Origin: a virus | Length of the DNA stretch: 21,560 nucleotides | Strand: one strand, 5' to 3' | Virus record (IMG/VR): IMGVR_UViG_3300029911_000156 | Coordinates: 1-21,560 of that record | Part shown: piece by piece, positions 3,608 to 21,560 of the stretch | Layout of the letters: each line of letters opens with the position of its first letter | Numbering within the stretch: position 1 is the stretch's first letter | The notes under the pieces: model-generated | Seen by the model: the letters and a program-made list of their open reading frames with translations, nothing else | What the model was told of the DNA's origin: nothing | Database searches by the model: none | Translations under genes and position numbers: made by a program

Positions 3608-3801
3608 TTGCGTTCGTTCCTTAAAAACTCTTCGGCGTGCAAGGTTGCCTGCGCGAGGGTAATGTAGCTGCCGATGTATACGTCGCGCTTGTTGCGTTTG
3701 AACTTCACCAGCCAAGGTCGGGCTCGGCGGGGGATGTAGGAGACTCCGTAAGGGTAGCGTCGTGGTCGGGCTTGGGGTTGGCCGTCGGATCGGGCGTTCA
3801 T
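3604..3801 (-). CDS. AP2-like DNA-binding domain protein (65 aa)
   Basis: Residues about 19-60 resemble an AP2/integrase-arm three-stranded sheet plus helix: GVSYIPRRARPWLVKFK, then RDVYIGSYITLAQATLHAEEF. The pattern (aromatic-W-basic strand, LG/IG-S/T-F/Y turn, T-x-x-x-A helix) is typical of small AP2-type domains found in phage homing nucleases and regulators. The N-terminus is basic and proline-rich. It stands alone, with no HNH or integrase catalytic part, so a DNA-binding or regulatory role is inferred. It lies 15 bases after the helicase stop and overlaps the next gene by ATGA. Confidence 0.68.
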   Translation of the reverse strand: MNARSDGQPQARPRRYPYGVSYIPRRARPWLVKFKRNKRDVYIGSYITLAQATLHAEEFLRNERK

Positions 3802-3816
3802 GATACAGGTACCAGT

Positions 3817-5247
3817 TTACCACACGATTGACTTGGAGTCAAGCATCACAAGGGAATTCTGGCTTCGCGTGATGATGACGTAGCGGAGGTTTTTGTCTTG
3901 TTCGGAATCGGAGAGCAGCCATGGGTCGAGGAAGAAGACGTTGGAGAACTCAAGGCCTTTGGACTTGTGCCCGGTGAGCAGGCGGATGGTGCCGGTCTGC
4001 TTAAACAGATGCTCGGCGTAGCTGATCGCGGTGCCAAGGGTGTCGCCGTGATCGGCAAAGACCCGCATGCAATCGGCGAGGTCCGATGCTGACTTGGAGC
4101 CGGCCAAGACCTTCTCTTCGCGGTAGGTTTCGATTGCTGCAAACACAGCTTCGCGACGCATCGACTCGTTGCCGAATTTCTTCATGATTCCCACAAGCCT
4201 CGGACCAATGTCGCTACCCATAACATTAACAGACTTACCCAGACTGAGCAGCCGAAAGGCGAGTCGAAGTAGTGGGGCATTATTACGGCAGATGATAGTG
4301 CTATCGTCAGCAAAATCAGTACCGCGGAACATATTTGCAGTGTTGACATGGCCACCTGCTTTCATCCATTTGAAGTGCGGCACTCTCCATCTTGCTGCTT
4401 CCACAATCGCCTGCGAGCAGCGGAAGCTGACGCTTAGGTCCAGCGAGGCCATTTGGTATCGTTCAACCGCTTGCTCCATCCCTCCGGCCTTGGCCCCGCG
4501 GAATCCGTAGATATTCTGCCAAGGGTCACCCACACCAATGAGCCGCGATTTGCCGGCGAGGCGCTCGAGCATTTGATGATTAACCGGCGACTGGTCTTGG
4601 TATTCGTCCACAAGGACGAGCGGAAATCGCGGAAATGTTCCTCCGAACAGCGCGGGCATATAAATCTGATCGTTATAGTCGATGAGGCCTTTGTAGGCGC
4701 GTTTGATGCTTTCGGTGAGGATGCTGTCGATGATTTCCTGGGCGTGTTCATCTGGGGGCTCGTCCATGGCGGCGGTGAGTTGGTCGGCTGTAGCGAGTCT
4801 TTTCGCAGCCGGGTAAATTCCTTCTGGAACGTATCCAATAGCCTTCGCTTTAGATACGCCGTCGGATACAATTTGATAGTAAGACCAAACAATCTTTGCC
4901 TCAGTCTTTGTAAGGCCATCTACCATTTCCTTAAACAGGGTGTTGGTCTTGCGGGCGTCCAGCACTACTTTCCCGGCGCAGTATGCGGCCCAGATGCGGT
5001 GGCCGAGGGAGTTGAAGGTGCGGATTGTGGTGGTGTCGGCGAACTCGCCGGAGGAGGTGGCCTCGTCGGCGTTGCGGCGGTTGAAGACCAAGTACAAAGC
5101 GGGCTTGGTTTTGATCGCACGGTCGATCATCTTCAACGTGCTGCTTTTGCCAGTGCCGGCCAATGCATTCAGCATGAGGTTGTCGGAGGTGCTGGTCGCG
5201 GCGTGGATGATTGCGGCTTGCTCTTCTGTCGGGTTGAGCGATGTCAT
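3817..5247 (-). CDS. SF1 UvrD/Rep-like DNA helicase (476 aa)
   Basis: All superfamily 1 helicase motifs are visible: Walker A ALAGTGKS (residues 28-35), motif Ia TFNSLG (77-82), Walker B VDEYQD (213-218, with Tyr where most have Ala), motif III GDPWQNIYGFRGA (240-252), motif IV SFRCS (274-278), motif V GHKSKGLEF (426-434) and motif VI YVIITRS (456-462). It therefore should unwind DNA using ATP, 3' to 5' by family. At 476 residues it is shorter than UvrD (about 720) and lacks large 1B/2B insertions, as in compact phage helicases. The start shares ATGA with the upstream stop. Context with a Cas4-like nuclease and Sak4-like ATPase suggests a replication/recombination role. Confidence 0.93.
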   Translation of the reverse strand: MTSLNPTEEQAAIIHAATSTSDNLMLNALAGTGKSSTLKMIDRAIKTKPALYLVFNRRNADEATSSGEFADTTTIRTFNSLGHRIWAAYCAGKVVLDARKTNTLFKEMVDGLTKTEAKIVWSYYQIVSDGVSKAKAIGYVPEGIYPAAKRLATADQLTAAMDEPPDEHAQEIIDSILTESIKRAYKGLIDYNDQIYMPALFGGTFPRFPLVLVDEYQDQSPVNHQMLERLAGKSRLIGVGDPWQNIYGFRGAKAGGMEQAVERYQMASLDLSVSFRCSQAIVEAARWRVPHFKWMKAGGHVNTANMFRGTDFADDSTIICRNNAPLLRLAFRLLSLGKSVNVMGSDIGPRLVGIMKKFGNESMRREAVFAAIETYREEKVLAGSKSASDLADCMRVFADHGDTLGTAISYAEHLFKQTGTIRLLTGHKSKGLEFSNVFFLDPWLLSDSEQDKNLRYVIITRSQNSLVMLDSKSIVW

Positions 5248-5910: not shown

Positions 5911-6218
5911 ATGCGTCTCACAATCGGCGGTAGGTTGGGCTTGAGGTTCAATCGATCGAGCAGCGAGGGCGCGCCACGGATCGGGCGATCGTTGCAGGCG
6001 TAGTGATCGGGCAGATTAGCCACATCGGATTGATCCCACTGCCGGTATGACGGGAAGTAGTCATACAACGGCCAAATTTCTGCGGGATAGGCCCGATGCC
6101 CGGAGGTGGGGATGATCCAGATCGGATCGCCGTCTTCGTCGAGGATGTCGAGGATGATGGCGATGTCGAAGGCAGGTTCGCCACGGACTTTATGGGCAAT
6201 GAGGTAGAGGTCAGTCAA
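5907..6218 (-). CDS. Conserved phage hypothetical protein, TTG start (103 aa)
   Basis: The N-terminal half (DLYLIAHKVRGEPAFDIA, then DEDGDPIWIIPTSGHRAYP) looks like a conserved phage family of unknown function; the C-terminal half is rich in Asp, Pro and Leu. No ATG is present upstream of the patterned region; the TTG has GGAG seven bases upstream, within the end of the small zinc gene, which it overlaps by 8 nt. It ends in an ATGA overlap. Confidence 0.68.
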   Translation of the reverse strand: MTDLYLIAHKVRGEPAFDIAIILDILDEDGDPIWIIPTSGHRAYPAEIWPLYDYFPSYRQWDQSDVANLPDHYACNDRPIRGAPSLLDRLNLKPNLPPIVRRI

Positions 6219-6369
6219 TTGGATGCTCCAATACTTGCTTATCCCAACAAGATGAATGATAAACCCAATCAGCTATCAAAACATAAGCCGAATCAGATAT
6301 CACACCATTGTTCCATCTAACCAACACAACTTTGCGGCAATATGGGCATTTACAGGTTATGACCTCCAT
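6211..6369 (-). CDS. Small zinc-finger-like protein (52 aa)
   Basis: This short gene starts with MEVITCKCPYCRKVVLVRWN and continues to HSSCWDKQVLEHPID. Cysteines at residues 6, 8, 11 and 41, with His 38, could hold one zinc ion. The ATG overlaps the upstream stop as TGATG, and the stop overlaps the following TTG start, so it fills exactly what would otherwise be a 150-nt gap in a run of touching genes; that fit plus the cysteine pattern is the evidence that it is real. It is AT-rich. Function unknown; a nucleic-acid or protein-binding adaptor is a guess. Confidence 0.68.
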   Translation of the reverse strand: MEVITCKCPYCRKVVLVRWNNGVISDSAYVLIADWVYHSSCWDKQVLEHPID

Positions 6370-6716
6370 CACTTAATCCCCATCTTCGCGATCAACCGCC
6401 TTGCACTCTCTCGCTGGGCCTCGGTAGTCTCAGCCCGCAGCCGCTCCTGCGCCTTGCTTAGCTTCACCTGCGGCTGGTTGATGGTTGGGTCGGCGCGGAC
6501 GTTGAACAAGGCCTTGGCTTCCAGCGCATCCAACACCTCGGCCTTGCGCTTGTGAAGGAGGCAGAGGGCTGCCATGAGGCCGCCTTCGTTGAGTGGGAGC
6601 TTCATGAGGTACGGGTTGCCGCCGGCGGACATCGGCAACGCGGCGATGATATCGTTGTCGCTCAGCCACATGGTTATGGCGTGGGGCGGGATCGGGGTAT
6701 CGTCGCGTTGGCCCAT
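6369..6716 (-). CDS. Hypothetical protein (115 aa)
   Basis: Not recognised at the level of function. The start is the ATG with GAGGAG six bases upstream, the strongest ribosome-binding site in this operon; two in-frame ATGs further upstream lack one. The N-terminal part reads HAITMWLSDNDIIAALPMSA and the C-terminal part is a long charged helix ending in RESARRLIAKMGIK. The stop overlaps the following start as TGATG. The strong site suggests higher expression than the neighbours. Confidence 0.72.
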   Translation of the reverse strand: MGQRDDTPIPPHAITMWLSDNDIIAALPMSAGGNPYLMKLPLNEGGLMAALCLLHKRKAEVLDALEAKALFNVRADPTINQPQVKLSKAQERLRAETTEAQRESARRLIAKMGIK

Positions 6717-12429: not shown

Positions 12430-12813
12430 ATGCTGGCGCTGGATGGGTTTGTGGAAGTCTCGCCGATGTTGCAATGCGCGGTGTATGCGCTGGCGAAGGA
12501 TGGGGTGGTGATCTACGTCGGGCAGTCGAAGAAGCCGCTGGCGCGGATCGCGGCGCACCGGGCGCAACTTGGCCGCAAGTCCACCCCCGACTGGATGCCG
12601 ATTCGAGGGATCGCGTTCGATCAAATCTTCCTCCGCCCCTGCCGCCCCGAAGACCTCAACGCCCTCGAGGCTGAGATGATCAACCTGTACAAGCCCAGGC
12701 TGAATGTCCGCGTGAAGAACCGACTCCCCATCGCCTCGGCCTTCAACCTTCGCATGGGCGACTTCACCCTCCAGATCAACCGACCCACCTCGCCATTCGA
12801 GCGACGAATCTGA
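12430..12813 (+). CDS. GIY-YIG nuclease-domain protein (127 aa)
   Basis: The two strands of the GIY-YIG motif appear as CAVYALAKDG (residues 16-25, with AVY in place of GIY) and VIYVGQS (27-33), followed by the conserved helix with Arg39 (LARIAAH) and a Glu-containing segment LNALEAEMINLYKPRLN (77-92), which provides the metal-binding Glu. It should therefore cut DNA. The start ATG has GGAG six bases upstream; a TTG four codons earlier is not needed. It directly precedes and overlaps (TGATG) the small terminase, the place where many phages keep an HNH nuclease needed for packaging; a free-standing homing nuclease is the alternative. Confidence 0.85.
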   Translation: MLALDGFVEVSPMLQCAVYALAKDGVVIYVGQSKKPLARIAAHRAQLGRKSTPDWMPIRGIAFDQIFLRPCRPEDLNALEAEMINLYKPRLNVRVKNRLPIASAFNLRMGDFTLQINRPTSPFERRI

Positions 12814-18925: not shown

Positions 18926-19969
18926 ATGGCCACTGTTGGCTCTCTAGCCCTGACCTATGCGGACTGGGCAAAACGTATGGATGACGGCTACCGCGTCGCC
19001 ACCATCATCGAGTTGTTGTCCCAGACCAACGAAATCCTCGACGACATGATCGTCATGGAAGGCAATCTCCCCACCGGGCACAAAACCACTGTCCGGACCG
19101 GGCTGCCCCAAGCAACCTGGCGCCTGCTGAACGCCGGCGTCCCTAACGCCAAGTCCACCACCGCGCAGATCACGGACACCTGCGGCAATCTCGAGACCTA
19201 CTCGGTCATCGACAAGGACATCGCGGACCTCAACGGCAACACTGCTGAGTTCCGATTGAGTGAGGTGAGGGCCTTCCTTGAAGGCATGTCACAGCAGGTT
19301 GCCTCGACCATCATCTACGGCAACCAGCACATCAACCCCGAGCGCTTCACCGGCCTCGCCCCGCGCTACTCGACCGTCCAGACCGCCAATTCCCAGACCG
19401 CCAACAACGTTCTCGATGCCGGCGGCACCTCCAACACCAACACCTCGCTGTGGATCACTACTTGGGGCTCCGATACCATGCACGGTATCTTTCCCAAGGG
19501 CAAGATCACCGGGCTCCAGCATCGCGACATGGGCGAGTGGCCGGTCCAGGACGCTGCGGGCAACACCTACCAAGCCTACCGCGATCACTTCAAATGGGAA
19601 ATCGGCATCACCCTCCGCGACTGGCGCTATCAAGCCCGGATCGCCAACATCGATGTCACCCAGCTGACGGGCGTCTCGGCCGCCAACCTGATCAACCTGA
19701 TCGTTCGTGGACTCTACCGTCTCCCCACCGCCCCTGCCCAGGCCACCGCCATCCAGACCTCTGACACCCCCGAAGTTCGGGCCAATCAGGGCCGAGTGGT
19801 GATCTACAGCAACCGCGTGATCCGGACGTATTTGGACCTCCAGGCAATGAACAAGACGAATGTGTTGCTACGGCTTGAGGAATTTAACGGCAAGGTCGTT
19901 ACCACCTTCCGTGGCATCCCCATCCGCACTTGCGACGCGATTCTCAACAACGAAGCCCAGATCACCTAA
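18926..19969 (+). CDS. Major capsid (coat) protein (347 aa)
   Basis: The N-terminus MATVGSLALTYADWAKRMDD, then ATIIELLSQTNEILDDM (25-41) and GNLPTGHKTTVRTGLP (46-61), is the highly conserved start of a coat protein family of podoviruses such as the Bordetella BPP-1 type (Bbp17). The HK97-fold core follows, with HFKWEIGITLRDWRYQARIA near residue 230. It forms the icosahedral shell. The ATG has GGAG nine bases upstream; a TTG five codons earlier is rejected. It is flanked by scaffold and Bbp16-like genes in the expected order. Confidence 0.93.
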   Translation: MATVGSLALTYADWAKRMDDGYRVATIIELLSQTNEILDDMIVMEGNLPTGHKTTVRTGLPQATWRLLNAGVPNAKSTTAQITDTCGNLETYSVIDKDIADLNGNTAEFRLSEVRAFLEGMSQQVASTIIYGNQHINPERFTGLAPRYSTVQTANSQTANNVLDAGGTSNTNTSLWITTWGSDTMHGIFPKGKITGLQHRDMGEWPVQDAAGNTYQAYRDHFKWEIGITLRDWRYQARIANIDVTQLTGVSAANLINLIVRGLYRLPTAPAQATAIQTSDTPEVRANQGRVVIYSNRVIRTYLDLQAMNKTNVLLRLEEFNGKVVTTFRGIPIRTCDAILNNEAQIT

Positions 19970-19982
19970 CGGAGCAACCCCA

Positions 19983-20519
19983 ATGATCCTCGACAACTTC
20001 CTAGCGTTCGATACGAACGTATCTCTTGCAATCGCAGTGGGCACCCAGGTCTCGACCAACGTCATCGACCTCGGTATCACCTCTGGCATCCCCACCTCAG
20101 CCAACGGCGGCGGTGCACGCGACATCGGCATCGGCGACGATCCTGCGATGAAGCTGCTGGTGCAGGTGATCACCACCTTCACCTCGGGCGGCGGCGGCAC
20201 CCTCGCAGTCACCTTGCAGGGCGCAGTCGACAACGGCTCAGGCGCCCCCGCTGCGTTCTCCTCATGGTACACCTCGCCAGTGTTCGCCCTCGCCACTCTC
20301 GTCGCGGGCTCCCGCCTAATGGACATGGACATGCCGCGTCCGCCGGATGGCATCGCTGTCCCGCGCTTCCTGCGCCTTAGCTACGCCGTCGCCACCGCCA
20401 CGATGACCGCGGGCAACGTCTCCTCGTTCATCGTCCTCGACCGCGACGACCAGATGTACAACAGCACGAACAACGCCATCATGGGTGGATACCCCGCCGG
20501 CATCACTGTAGCGAACTGA
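19983..20519 (+). CDS. Bbp16-like capsid cement protein (178 aa)
   Basis: The start MILDNFLAFDTNVSLAIAVG, then STNVIDLGITSG, RDIGIGDDPAMKLLVQVITT and the LRLSYAVATATMTAGNVSSF segment fit the Bbp16 family, a beta-rich protein encoded just after the coat gene in BPP-1-type phages and thought to strengthen the capsid surface. The ATG has GGAG eight bases upstream, 13 bases after the coat stop. The protein is rich in Gly, Thr and Ala and has no signal peptide, unlike the next three genes. Confidence 0.85.
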   Translation: MILDNFLAFDTNVSLAIAVGTQVSTNVIDLGITSGIPTSANGGGARDIGIGDDPAMKLLVQVITTFTSGGGGTLAVTLQGAVDNGSGAPAAFSSWYTSPVFALATLVAGSRLMDMDMPRPPDGIAVPRFLRLSYAVATATMTAGNVSSFIVLDRDDQMYNSTNNAIMGGYPAGITVAN

Positions 20520-20526
20520 GGGCACC

Positions 20527-21027
20527 ATGAACCTTAAACGCAAATTGGCTTTAGGAGGGGCAGCCCTCCTAATTCCAGGGGCAGCCCTCGCACAGGCCCA
20601 GCTGGGTTACAAAACCTTCCTCGGCACTGAAACTATCGAAATGACTACCGGCGGTCCCGGTGGCCAATCCTTCTACGCTACTGTAACCCAGCTACGCAAT
20701 ACCACTGGCTACCAACTGCTCGCAGCGGCTACCGGAACCATTGCGCCGTCCGCTGCGGTAGATAACCTACTCATCAACACGCAGCCAACCGGTACTACCA
20801 CGATCAACACGCCGCTGAACTCGTCTACCCTGCCACTATCAGACGCGCAGTTGTTTGCGGTTTGCAACGTCACTGGTTCGGCTTGGTCTACCAATACCGT
20901 GACTCTTGCAGCGGCTGCTGGGCAAACCATTAGCGGCGGTTCTGTCACCATCACTACCCTTGCCGCCCACACCTGCGTTGAATTCCAATACGTCCTTTCA
21001 ACCACTACTTGGTACCAGATAAGGTAA
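20527..21027 (+). CDS. Secreted beta-rich protein with Sec signal peptide (166 aa)
   Basis: The N-terminus has a classic Sec signal peptide: basic MNLKRK, hydrophobic core to residue 20, and a likely signal peptidase I cut at ALA|QAQ (22/23). The mature part is Thr/Ser/Ala-rich and beta-like, with two Cys (FAVCNV, HTCVEF), and ends in TTTWYQIR, resembling small fibre or decoration domains of phages. The ATG has GAGG five bases upstream. Codons 10-21 contain a 21-nt in-frame near-duplication (GAALLIP/GAALA) and a perfect AGGAGGG/CCCTCCT hairpin. Export of a product from the virion module is unusual; a periplasmic or surface role in the host is possible. Confidence 0.8.
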   Translation: MNLKRKLALGGAALLIPGAALAQAQLGYKTFLGTETIEMTTGGPGGQSFYATVTQLRNTTGYQLLAAATGTIAPSAAVDNLLINTQPTGTTTINTPLNSSTLPLSDAQLFAVCNVTGSAWSTNTVTLAAAAGQTISGGSVTITTLAAHTCVEFQYVLSTTTWYQIR

Positions 21028-21035
21028 TTCATCCC

Positions 21036-21488
21036 ATGCGCAAATACCTCGCACCTATCGGCTTGGTCCTCGCACTCAGCGCTGGCCTTGCCCTTGCCCA
21101 GTCCGCCAACCGATCTATCCAAGGGTCCCAGGACCCCACTGGCCAGATCGGCTTTGACAACATCCAGGGTGGCATCTACCTCCCCGGCCACCTTCTCTCC
21201 ACCACGCGCTTGGTGCCGCCGCCTGCGCTCTCAGCCTGCGCCACTGGCGGGACCCCAGGCATCGTCGGCACTGACTTCCAAGGCACCATCACCGGCGGCA
21301 CCACTGCCTCCACTTCTTGCGTAGTCACCTTCGGCACCGCGTTCCAAACGGCACCGAACTGCAACGTATCTTGGAAGTCCGGCCCGCTCGCCGCGATGTC
21401 ATGGGCAGTCTCCACCACCGCCCTTACCATCACCCAAACCTCCAACGCTAGCTCGCAGATTGTCTACACCTGCGTTAGCTCGGGCTAG
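21036..21488 (+). CDS. Secreted protein with Sec signal peptide and fibre-like C-terminal domain (150 aa)
   Basis: MRKYLAPIGLVLALSAGLAL is followed by A and a likely cut at ALA|QS (21/22). The mature part begins SIQGSQDPTGQIGFDNIQGG, then a beta domain with four Cys (SACATG, TSCVVTF, PNCNVSW, YTCVSSG) and the pattern DFQGTITGGTTA...CVVTF. I recall this cysteine-rich beta domain at the C-terminus of fibre-like proteins of phages and prophages. Four Cys suit disulphide formation outside the cytoplasm. A longer in-frame start at 21009 would bury the signal and is rejected. Confidence 0.8.
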   Translation: MRKYLAPIGLVLALSAGLALAQSANRSIQGSQDPTGQIGFDNIQGGIYLPGHLLSTTRLVPPPALSACATGGTPGIVGTDFQGTITGGTTASTSCVVTFGTAFQTAPNCNVSWKSGPLAAMSWAVSTTALTITQTSNASSQIVYTCVSSG

Positions 21489-21499
21489 GACCACACCCC

Positions 21500-21560
21500 A
21501 TGCGCAAAATCCTCGCCGGACTGATCCTGCTTCTTGCCAGCCTTGGTCCGACGCTGGCGC
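21500..21560 (+). CDS. Third signal-peptide protein, 3' part beyond the window
   Basis: Only 20 codons are visible: MRKILAGLILLLASLGPTLA, a complete signal peptide with a likely cut after TLA. AGGA lies nine bases upstream. The first bases of the gene (CCCATGCGCAAA) match those of the previous gene, so the two signal regions may be duplicates. The mature protein cannot be judged. Confidence 0.72.
   Translation, partial: MRKILAGLILLLASLGPTLA

Follow-up and report, generated by a model that had tools for sequence, protein, structure and literature searches.

A conserved island of signal-peptide-led, probably exported adhesin-like proteins in the virion module of tailed phages

The viral record IMGVR_UViG_3300029911_000156, here called the window (21560 bases, the whole record), stops inside the third of three consecutive genes, P0001 to P0003, that follow its coat and Bbp16-like cement genes and each open with a Sec signal peptide (SP). 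Comparison with related sequences suggests that they form part of an island of Sec-exported, cysteine-paired, adhesin-like proteins within the virion module of tailed phages; the island is real, conserved and probably biologically meaningful. Textbook tailed-phage assembly joins virion proteins in the cytoplasm. The best explanation we can offer for the row, to which we give an even chance, is that its products are Sec-exported, disulfide-bonded adhesins that join the particles at or after lysis.

The right end of the window is the late module of an epsilon15/BPP-1-type podophage, with terminase, portal, coat and Bbp16-like cement genes; PF20911, PF21190 and PF12236 (the Head-tail_con portal) all score above the Pfam cut-off. 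As the Bbp16 stop codon and the P0001 start are only seven bases apart, the SP row most likely belongs to the late operon.

Signal peptides and paired cysteines behind Bbp16

The three SP-led starts lie where the earlier note had placed them, two of the genes being complete and the third visible as an SP alone. P0001 (20527-21027, 166 residues) begins MNLKRKLALGGAALLIPGAALA and continues behind the predicted cleavage site with QAQ, P0002 (21036-21488, 150 residues) begins MRKYLAPIGLVLALSAGLALA and continues with QSA, and P0003 (21500-21560, 20 codons) reads MRKILAGLILLLASLGPTLA. By sequence and by family statistics these are Sec SPs with a positive n-region, a hydrophobic h-region and an AxA site, their predicted ends being AALA/Q in P0001, LALA/Q in P0002 and TLA in the third gene (the slash marks the cleavage site). 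Shine-Dalgarno-like bases precede all three starts, weakly so for P0002, and 46 bp of the third gene are 87% identical to the start of a 275-residue SP gene behind a P0001-type gene in the relative L008.

SPs were scored with our own rule for n-, h- and c-regions on genes called by our own codon-based caller, and the counts by position, which depend on both (the caller sometimes places starts too late, for example behind the SP in L196 and L205), leave out genes below 60 residues and genes starting at a locus's first bases. Among the best 80 of 558 viral relatives found by a coat-protein scan, several of them near copies, the first gene after the coat (+1, Bbp16) never has an SP (0/74), the next two have one in 61/68 (+2) and 44/60 (+3) cases, positions +4 to +11 in 20-33%, and the coat and the genes before it in 9/454. 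On shuffled N-termini the rule hits 9% of the +2/+3 genes and 0.8% of the coat and preceding genes. When loci with coat proteins at least 95% alike are removed, SPs are found in 36/43 genes at +2, 25/37 at +3, 0/48 at +1 and 0/169 at -3 to 0.

Grouped by family, SPs are present in 38/40 members of family 2, 32/34 of family 3 (P0001), 29/30 of family 5, 27/28 of family 6 (P0002) and 23/27 of family 7 (fibre-like, about 474 residues), and absent from the Bbp16 family (0/75) and from the MARWKL family behind the row (0/51). An [AVSTG]xA/Q site at residues 13-36 occurs in 29/40, 28/34, 18/30, 26/28 and 24/27 members of families 2, 3, 5, 6 and 7, against 11-20% in shuffles (13% for the P0001 family, 20% for that of P0002). 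The earlier note had seen a threat in a conserved downstream start that would exclude the signal; just 4 of 179 SP genes have an alternative start, well matched by a Shine-Dalgarno sequence, close to the cleavage site or beyond it. A scan with the P0002 family gave 64 loci, 39 of which, some from contigs already counted, were examined: a gene was called at the match in 35 (the caller placed none in L145, L147, L148 and L177) and 34 of these have an SP by rule, the sole exception being the 1003-residue fibre of L193, where an SP-like start is seen by eye.

The row behind Bbp16 is real and conserved beyond chance, and to this extent the SP prediction bears out the earlier note. Its "three consecutive" genes are present in the window, but three is a local number, as the row varies in length among relatives and includes other families. 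The feature is not confined to the window: in 24 soil relatives that have both Bbp16 and a Bbp14-like adaptor gene the two lie 2.7-9.0 kb apart with 0-8 SP genes between them, 1-8 in 23 of the 24.

Disulfide-bonded proteins tend toward even cysteine counts. Counted from the cleavage site given by the SP rule, in proteins of at least 60 residues, the number is even in 156 of 165 cysteine-containing mature SP proteins, compared with 86/203 downstream non-SP genes and 141/307 coat and upstream genes (42-46%). With one representative per 60% identity group, SP proteins divide into 82 even and 6 odd and the others into 76 and 110 (Fisher 3e-18); with one per 40% identity group the split is 45 to 5 as against 42 to 42 (1.7e-6). 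Cysteine columns also co-occur in pairs, in more than one topology, within three alignments limited to SP-positive, length-filtered, distinct members, whose cysteine counts thus come from selected rows: A1 (24 of family 3 plus the window, one near copy omitted), A2 (21 of family 6 plus the window) and A3 (19 members of family 2). A1 columns 109 and 142 carry cysteine together in 6 sequences, and columns 19 and 36 in 3, never one without the other, and column 108 is cysteine in ten sequences, each partnered by column 152 (six) or 76 (four). Columns 61 and 88 of A2 occur together 11 times and alone twice, columns 29 and 57 of A3 together five times and alone once, and every row of the three alignments (66/66) holds 0, 2 or 4 cysteines. 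Given the family-conserved SPs, the AxA/Q sites and the paired cysteines, Sec export with folding in the periplasm is very likely, and the core of the earlier reading, that these virion-module genes encode exported proteins, is supported at the level of sequence.

A separate observation concerns the late proteins of 580-720 and 1580-1970 residues, which are cysteine-free in five records (G391, G394, G397, G398 and G400); the late giant proteins of G399 have one cysteine in all, whereas the exported proteins carry their cysteines in pairs. A similar gene for a 133-residue lipoprotein-like protein (LGGCAQL), possibly part of lysis, follows the late genes for giant proteins in G400 (5977-6378) and G394 (45166-45567).

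Table 1. Features at the right end of the window
Feature	Positions	Strand	Basis
Major capsid protein, epsilon15 gp7/Bbp17 type	18926..19969	+	Pfam GP7 PF20911, E 6e-134; PHROG major head protein
Bbp16-like cementing protein, without SP	19983..20519	+	Pfam Bbp16 PF21190, E 2.5e-15
SP of P0001, 22 codons, ...PGAALA/QAQ	20527..20592	+	Sequence; SP in 32/34 of family
Mature P0001, predicted beta-sandwich of T4 gp9/gp10, CBA120 TSP4, StcE type; two cysteines	20593..21027	+	AF2 model, VIA
SP of P0002, 21 codons, ...GLALA/QSA	21036..21098	+	Sequence; SP in 27/28 of family
Mature P0002, N-terminal stretch with SQDxTG...YxPxH motif, proposed docking segment	21099..21206	+	Conserved columns; low-confidence model
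P0002, predicted C-terminal H-type-lectin/fibre-knob-like domain, four cysteines	21207..21488	+	Weak VIA match; BFVD fibre C-termini
Third SP, gene cut by record end	21500..21560	+	Sequence; L008 similarity

Predicted folds and a shared knob-like domain

Mature P0001 models (AF2, pLDDT 83) as an adaptor-like sandwich of the T4 gp10/CBA120 TSP4 type. In VIA it matches 7rej_B, the adaptor region of CBA120 TSP4, with Z 11.0 (root-mean-square deviation, rmsd, 2.5; 98 residues aligned), T4 gp10 (5iv5_AC) with Z 9.0 and gp9 (1qex_A) with Z 7.8; 91-98 of its 144 residues align to the T4 gp9/10-type fold. Ranks 1-7 and 9-10 are taken by CBA120 TSP4, a KP1 baseplate protein, the Solidus tailspike depolymerase, T4 gp10, T4 gp9 and the Pa223 capsid spike. 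By sequence, P0001 matches Pfam T4_gp9_10_N (PF07880) at E 0.0023 and 18.4 bits, under the 25-bit gathering cut-off; 1 of 25 family members matches it at E ≤ 0.05, and a search of PDB sequences with A1 ranks T4 gp10 (E 0.08) below an unrelated enzyme (E 0.067). Over their aligned mature parts the family members share 20-49% identity with P0001 of the window.

Mature P0002 appears to be built in two parts. The N-terminus is highly conserved (SQDxTG..VD....YxPxH) and holds 6 of the 12 invariant columns of A2, and the model leaves it unstructured, with pLDDT below 50 for residues 1-36. The C-terminal half forms a predicted sandwich for which the best VIA match, to H-type lectins and fibre knobs, has Z 6.5 (70 residues aligned, rmsd 2.2). 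The weak fold matches comprise H-type lectins, R-pyocin fibre knobs, AP22 gp53 and the LKA1, Pam1 and Sf6 tailspikes, and most of the named matches to P0002 among the predicted viral proteins of BFVD are C-terminal parts of fibres or H-type lectin domains. The structure prediction proposed in the earlier note therefore has an outcome for each complete protein: a model resembling virion adaptor domains for P0001 and, for P0002, a weakly matched knob- or lectin-like sandwich behind an unstructured stretch. No homologue of P0001 or P0002 was found by tblastn (E 0.01) in 50,697 phage records, and neither A2 nor A4 retrieved a useful match from the PDB sequences. A P0002 profile found no match in 6 genomes with related prophages and 385 genomes of one class, an empty answer that is uninformative as the search had no positive control.

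The P0002 profile also matches a second place in the L062 record, the end of a 1003-residue protein (E 6e-25), which begins MSKLRRMCDFFITALVAGSLYSGCLTPADAQN (SP-like by eye, not scored by the rule), contains repeats of the TNKTFDTAGTGN kind and matches a PHROG "tail fiber protein" at E 7e-16. A scan with the C-terminus of this protein gave 13 loci (L201 and L202, which show the same gene, are both counted), and in all 13 the knob-like domain stands behind an SP, by eye in L062 and by rule in the other 12; the SP-led start lies ahead of the called one in L196 and L205 and lacks a Shine-Dalgarno match in L200. Nine of the loci (L196-L199 and L201-L205) have none of six core genes, characteristic of the window's phage type, that were looked for. 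In L201 the coat gene is of the PF13252 kind, the SP lectin gene is the second gene after it, and another SP gene follows directly; L198, L199 and L202 resemble it over the parts compared; and L204, because it has Baseplate_J, is by its sequence myovirus-like. Since the domain is SP-led in loci that lack window-type core genes, it travels with its SP between unrelated phages.

The N-terminal SQDxTG...YxPxH motif is missing from these nine loci, and a core gene of the window's phage type is present in all 64 loci of the P0002-family scan, the patterns of which lie in this motif. Sequence comparison thus indicates a strong but not perfect tie of the motif to the phage type. By analogy, the layout of P0002 would be that of a virion-specific foot with an exchangeable head, as expected of an adhesin. 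In L167 an SP lectin gene (3662-4117) is found between terminase and portal, not behind Bbp16.

Distribution of the island and candidate adsorption genes

Setting aside the common virion families, 94 downstream genes encode at least 200 residues, and 75 of these are SP-led from the start that the caller chose. For 11 of the other 19 an upstream start in the same open frame gives an SP, though several of these starts lack a Shine-Dalgarno match; four appear SP-led by eye and are unscored by the rule (L022, L023, L056, L062). This leaves four genes without an SP, namely two that lie past the adaptor in L015, one of 261 residues in L065 and one of 567 residues in L016. Searches of Pfam, PHROGs and PDB sequences with the large spike-like SP proteins of L011 and L008 returned no informative match. 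Twin-arginine-like starts, rather than plain Sec ones, are seen in L008 (4170-7166, MNRRELLLGASS...) and in L026 upstream of 10050 (...TRRKFLTGAAATLF...).

Six long relatives of 49-50 kb and unstated completeness were read piecewise, and one, G391, was profile-scanned for genes of at least 250 residues. With coat, portal, terminase and a Wzy_C-like gene set aside, eight non-SP genes remained in G391. Four are replication-type genes (DNA polymerase, primase, helicase and exonuclease), two belong to "tail protein" families and from their position would be the hub and the adaptor, and the last two encode a 1933-residue protein of phrog_9880 (function not known) and a 581-residue protein without match. 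No fibre family is among these eight, and in the other five relatives no fibre-like gene was noticed by eye outside the island, the large genes of which are SP-led by rule or by eye. As no other fibre gene was recognised in G391, the exported proteins are by elimination the candidates for adsorption, if these phages adsorb by fibres or spikes. Mtd of BPP-1 is reportedly a tropism protein diversified by a diversity-generating retroelement; RVT_1 is found in 0/12 of the relatives' records, which may be incomplete, and in 3/14 control genomes.

Searches of phage records for a family 2 protein and for an island fibre found two Synechococcus phages and one weak match. The nearest phage found with a laboratory host is Synechococcus phage Yong-M4-211, which grows on PCC 7002 and is of another type; its 138-residue protein is a family 2 relative with an SP. 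In Synechococcus phage Ssp-JY42 (L135, 7848-10635; the same in L136), a cultured phage of another type, a family 2 relative with an SP lies in the fibre region, and behind it in both records is a 786-residue protein with an SP-like start by eye. Virus Rctr41k (L137, 8963-10942) has, behind its tail genes, a 659-residue protein that opens with a signal resembling that of lipoproteins (FSAC).

A Wzy_C-like polytopic membrane protein of the O-antigen ligase/polymerase superfamily lies inside the SP row in 9 of the 80 loci and in L082 (examples are L082:12252-13130, L011:12563-13654 and L062:9998-11098). Six of the ten members match Pfam Wzy_C at E ≤ 0.01, the best at 8.5e-9, the first member falling below the cut-off. 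In some rows this putative phage enzyme might modify the exported adhesins.

Ten isolates with related coats, 35-48% identical, were compared (BPP-1, epsilon15, Caulobacter BL94, Limnohabitans DC33, Microcystis Mel-JY33, ctQRb9, Pseudomonas Tr60_Ab31, BcepC6B, Xanthomonas CP2 and Vibrio 1.021.A). Their gene tables place Bbp16 and adaptor about 0.2-0.8 kb apart, and 3 of their 163 annotated genes score as SP-led, none convincingly in the row's place; one of these (L115, 17995) lies behind the coat and is unconvincing by eye. The Limnohabitans DC33 record (L110, PQ492659.1) is filed under Inoviridae, yet is 39 kb long with a GP7-type coat and a podophage-like gene order, and its taxonomy looks wrong.

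Bacterial genomes gave 25 loci, 22 of them with coats 42-58% identical, from Acetobacteraceae, Agrobacterium, Gastranaerophilales, cyanobacteria-labelled bins and others. A row behind Bbp16 is absent from the 7 examined of these 22, which are prophages from Bombella, Saccharibacter, Acetobacter and Agrobacterium and one Gastranaerophilales contig; in Bombella apis (L085) and Saccharibacter floricola (L088), however, individual large genes open with SP-like ends. The three nearer contigs, from a Terriglobia bin (L082, with SP genes), a Telmatospirillum bin (L083, ending inside the coat gene) and a proteobacterium (L090, without a row), may be misbinned phage. Among the loci read, those with the row have coats about 81% identical or more (L082 and the viral contigs), and it is missing where coat identity is 69% (L090) or lower; from these sequences it looks like the gain of one clade.

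The window contains, ahead of its terminase genes, an open reading frame (12430-12813) with a GIY-YIG-like start, VYALAKDGVVIYVGQSK, near the place where BPP-1 has the bbp27 endonuclease.

Role of the exported proteins and relation to known systems

We propose that P0001 to P0003 are the first genes of an "exported adhesin" island within the late operon, the products of which would be made late, pass through Sec, be cleaved by signal peptidase and fold with disulfide bonds in the periplasm. They would be receptor-binding parts, an adaptor-like sandwich in P0001 and, in P0002, a putatively glycan-binding knob on a docking tail, to which relatives would add larger spikes and fibres. At lysis they would meet the cytoplasm-built particles and dock on them, completing the adsorption apparatus and becoming part of the virion. 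Docking is argued mainly from the virion-specific foot and shared head of P0002, as in fibres. Of the roles offered in the earlier note, post-lysis addition to particles is the best fit: adaptor and knob domains of virions are what the mature parts resemble, and no other fibre gene is recognised in G391. More tentative, at somewhat below an even chance, is the full scheme of a two-compartment build, with capsid and tail made in the cytoplasm, disulfide-bonded adhesins made in the periplasm via host Sec and Dsb, the two joined at lysis, and heads swapped between unrelated phages as exported units.

Several observations weigh against this proposal. Disulfides could, in principle, also form in cytoplasm-built fibres after release. 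L015 has no SP gene between Bbp16 and adaptor, the 567-residue island gene of L016 is fibre-like and shows no SP, and the ten isolates have no SP row, which makes the arrangement dispensable for this virion type. An unrecognised receptor-binding part could be contained in one of the G391 proteins without a fibre match, whether the two tail proteins, the one of phrog_9880 or the one of 581 residues. The Z of the P0002 lectin-like match is below VIA's caution level of 8, and Foldseek finds no match for P0002 in the PDB at E 0.001. Secreted-protease chains (4dny, 6o38) match P0001 as well, in both Foldseek and VIA, and 4 of 25 P0001-family members have a weak Pfam StcE_b-sandwich match. L200, L167 and L206 have window-type core genes and no match to the motif pattern. 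As 9 of the 80 rows include a Wzy_C-like gene, surface glycan change may belong to the island. A search of the virion-proteome literature, as far as its sources were accessible, turned up nothing on these phages.

The main rival explanation, which we judge unlikely though well ahead of the others, is that the exported lectin-like proteins mask the surface glycans of the producing cell late in infection, blocking adsorption of other phages and sparing released progeny from being caught on the dying cell or its debris, with no need to enter the virion. The same export evidence serves it equally, the Wzy_C-like gene points to surface glycan change, and there is a precedent, according to the sections available of PMC11436027, in Cor of phi80 and N15, which inactivates the receptor FhuA. 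Under surface masking, however, no recognised fibre gene would be left in the long genomes that were read. Large products that look like spikes or fibres are also numerous, and an N-terminal motif that tracks phage type, as that of P0002 does, is needless in a cell-surface lectin. The host-surface coating and superinfection block suggested in the earlier note belong with this rival, and the Wzy_C-like gene speaks for them.

It is considerably less probable that the products are exported soluble or matrix-bound helpers in soil that attach to glycans of the host or of biofilms around phage after its release, or that they serve as substrates of the Wzy_C-like enzyme. Ser/Thr-rich beta proteins (by eye), secreted relatives with StcE domains and the Wzy_C-like neighbour of some rows are consistent with such helpers, which leave unexplained both the place inside the virion genes and the N-terminus tied to phage type. 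Least probable by far is that the hydrophobic ends stay uncleaved on virion proteins assembled in the cytoplasm, there to penetrate membranes or to oligomerise. A virion-module position and fibre-like folds fit ordinary virion proteins, but 28 of 34 P0001-family members keep the [AVSTG]xA/Q site despite their diverged mature parts, the cysteine pairing is absent from neighbouring genes, and the same domain is SP-led in unrelated phages. The conserved cleavage sites and the cysteine pairing likewise disfavour the membrane-penetrating end that the earlier note had offered as an alternative.

If the preferred reading of adhesins joined to particles at lysis is correct, the two-compartment build would let progeny carry oxidised, rigid adhesins, and export would keep these off envelope precursors inside the cell. 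The secretion and oxidative folding systems of the host would then help to set host range, particles without fibres should be present until lysis, and phages in the same cell could exchange adhesins. Should the products instead stay on the host, they would represent a large unrecognised set of surface lectins among phage virion genes. Either way many "hypothetical" soil-phage genes gain a testable role.

Exported rows of fibre or lectin genes in tailed phages are not described in the open-access full texts searched (subscription papers lay outside the scope), to the extent that these texts were available; exported endolysins and Cor were found. The portions consulted of PMC3556154 and PMC13001222 hold nothing on exported virion-gene rows, and PMC10249906, on DsbA and phage, was rejected as a precedent, the part seen being concerned with capsule control and not with phage proteins. 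The novelty of an exported adhesin row is accordingly provisional.

Epsilon15/BPP-1-type podophages share with the window the order portal, coat, cement, and its relatives also have a Bbp14-like adaptor further on; the isolates differ in the interval between Bbp16 and adaptor, about 0.2-0.8 kb in them and 2.7-9.0 kb in the soil relatives. The adaptor domains of CBA120 TSP4 and T4 gp10/gp9 resemble the predicted fold of P0001, with a weak sequence match, but P0001 stands on its own as a small protein that has an SP and two cysteines. Similarly, the R-pyocin fibre, AP22 gp53 and Helix pomatia agglutinin are the best, weak fold matches of the P0002 C-terminal half, which unlike those knobs and lectins is SP-led, has paired cysteines and in many cases stands alone instead of capping a long chain. 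Cor is exported, and Cor, Llp and Lom are single proteins acting at the envelope. They are phage-coded and envelope-facing, as the row products would be, whereas here a row of adhesin-like proteins lies inside a virion module. Lys44 of fOg44 is an endolysin with a cleaved Sec SP that accumulates outside the membrane before lysis, according to the part available of PMC6116005. It is an SP-led phage protein like the row products, but a lysis enzyme and not adhesin-like. The pIII of filamentous phages, which assemble at the membrane, is an adsorption protein made with an SP; the row, likewise of SP-led candidate adsorption proteins, belongs to tailed phages with cytoplasmic packaging.

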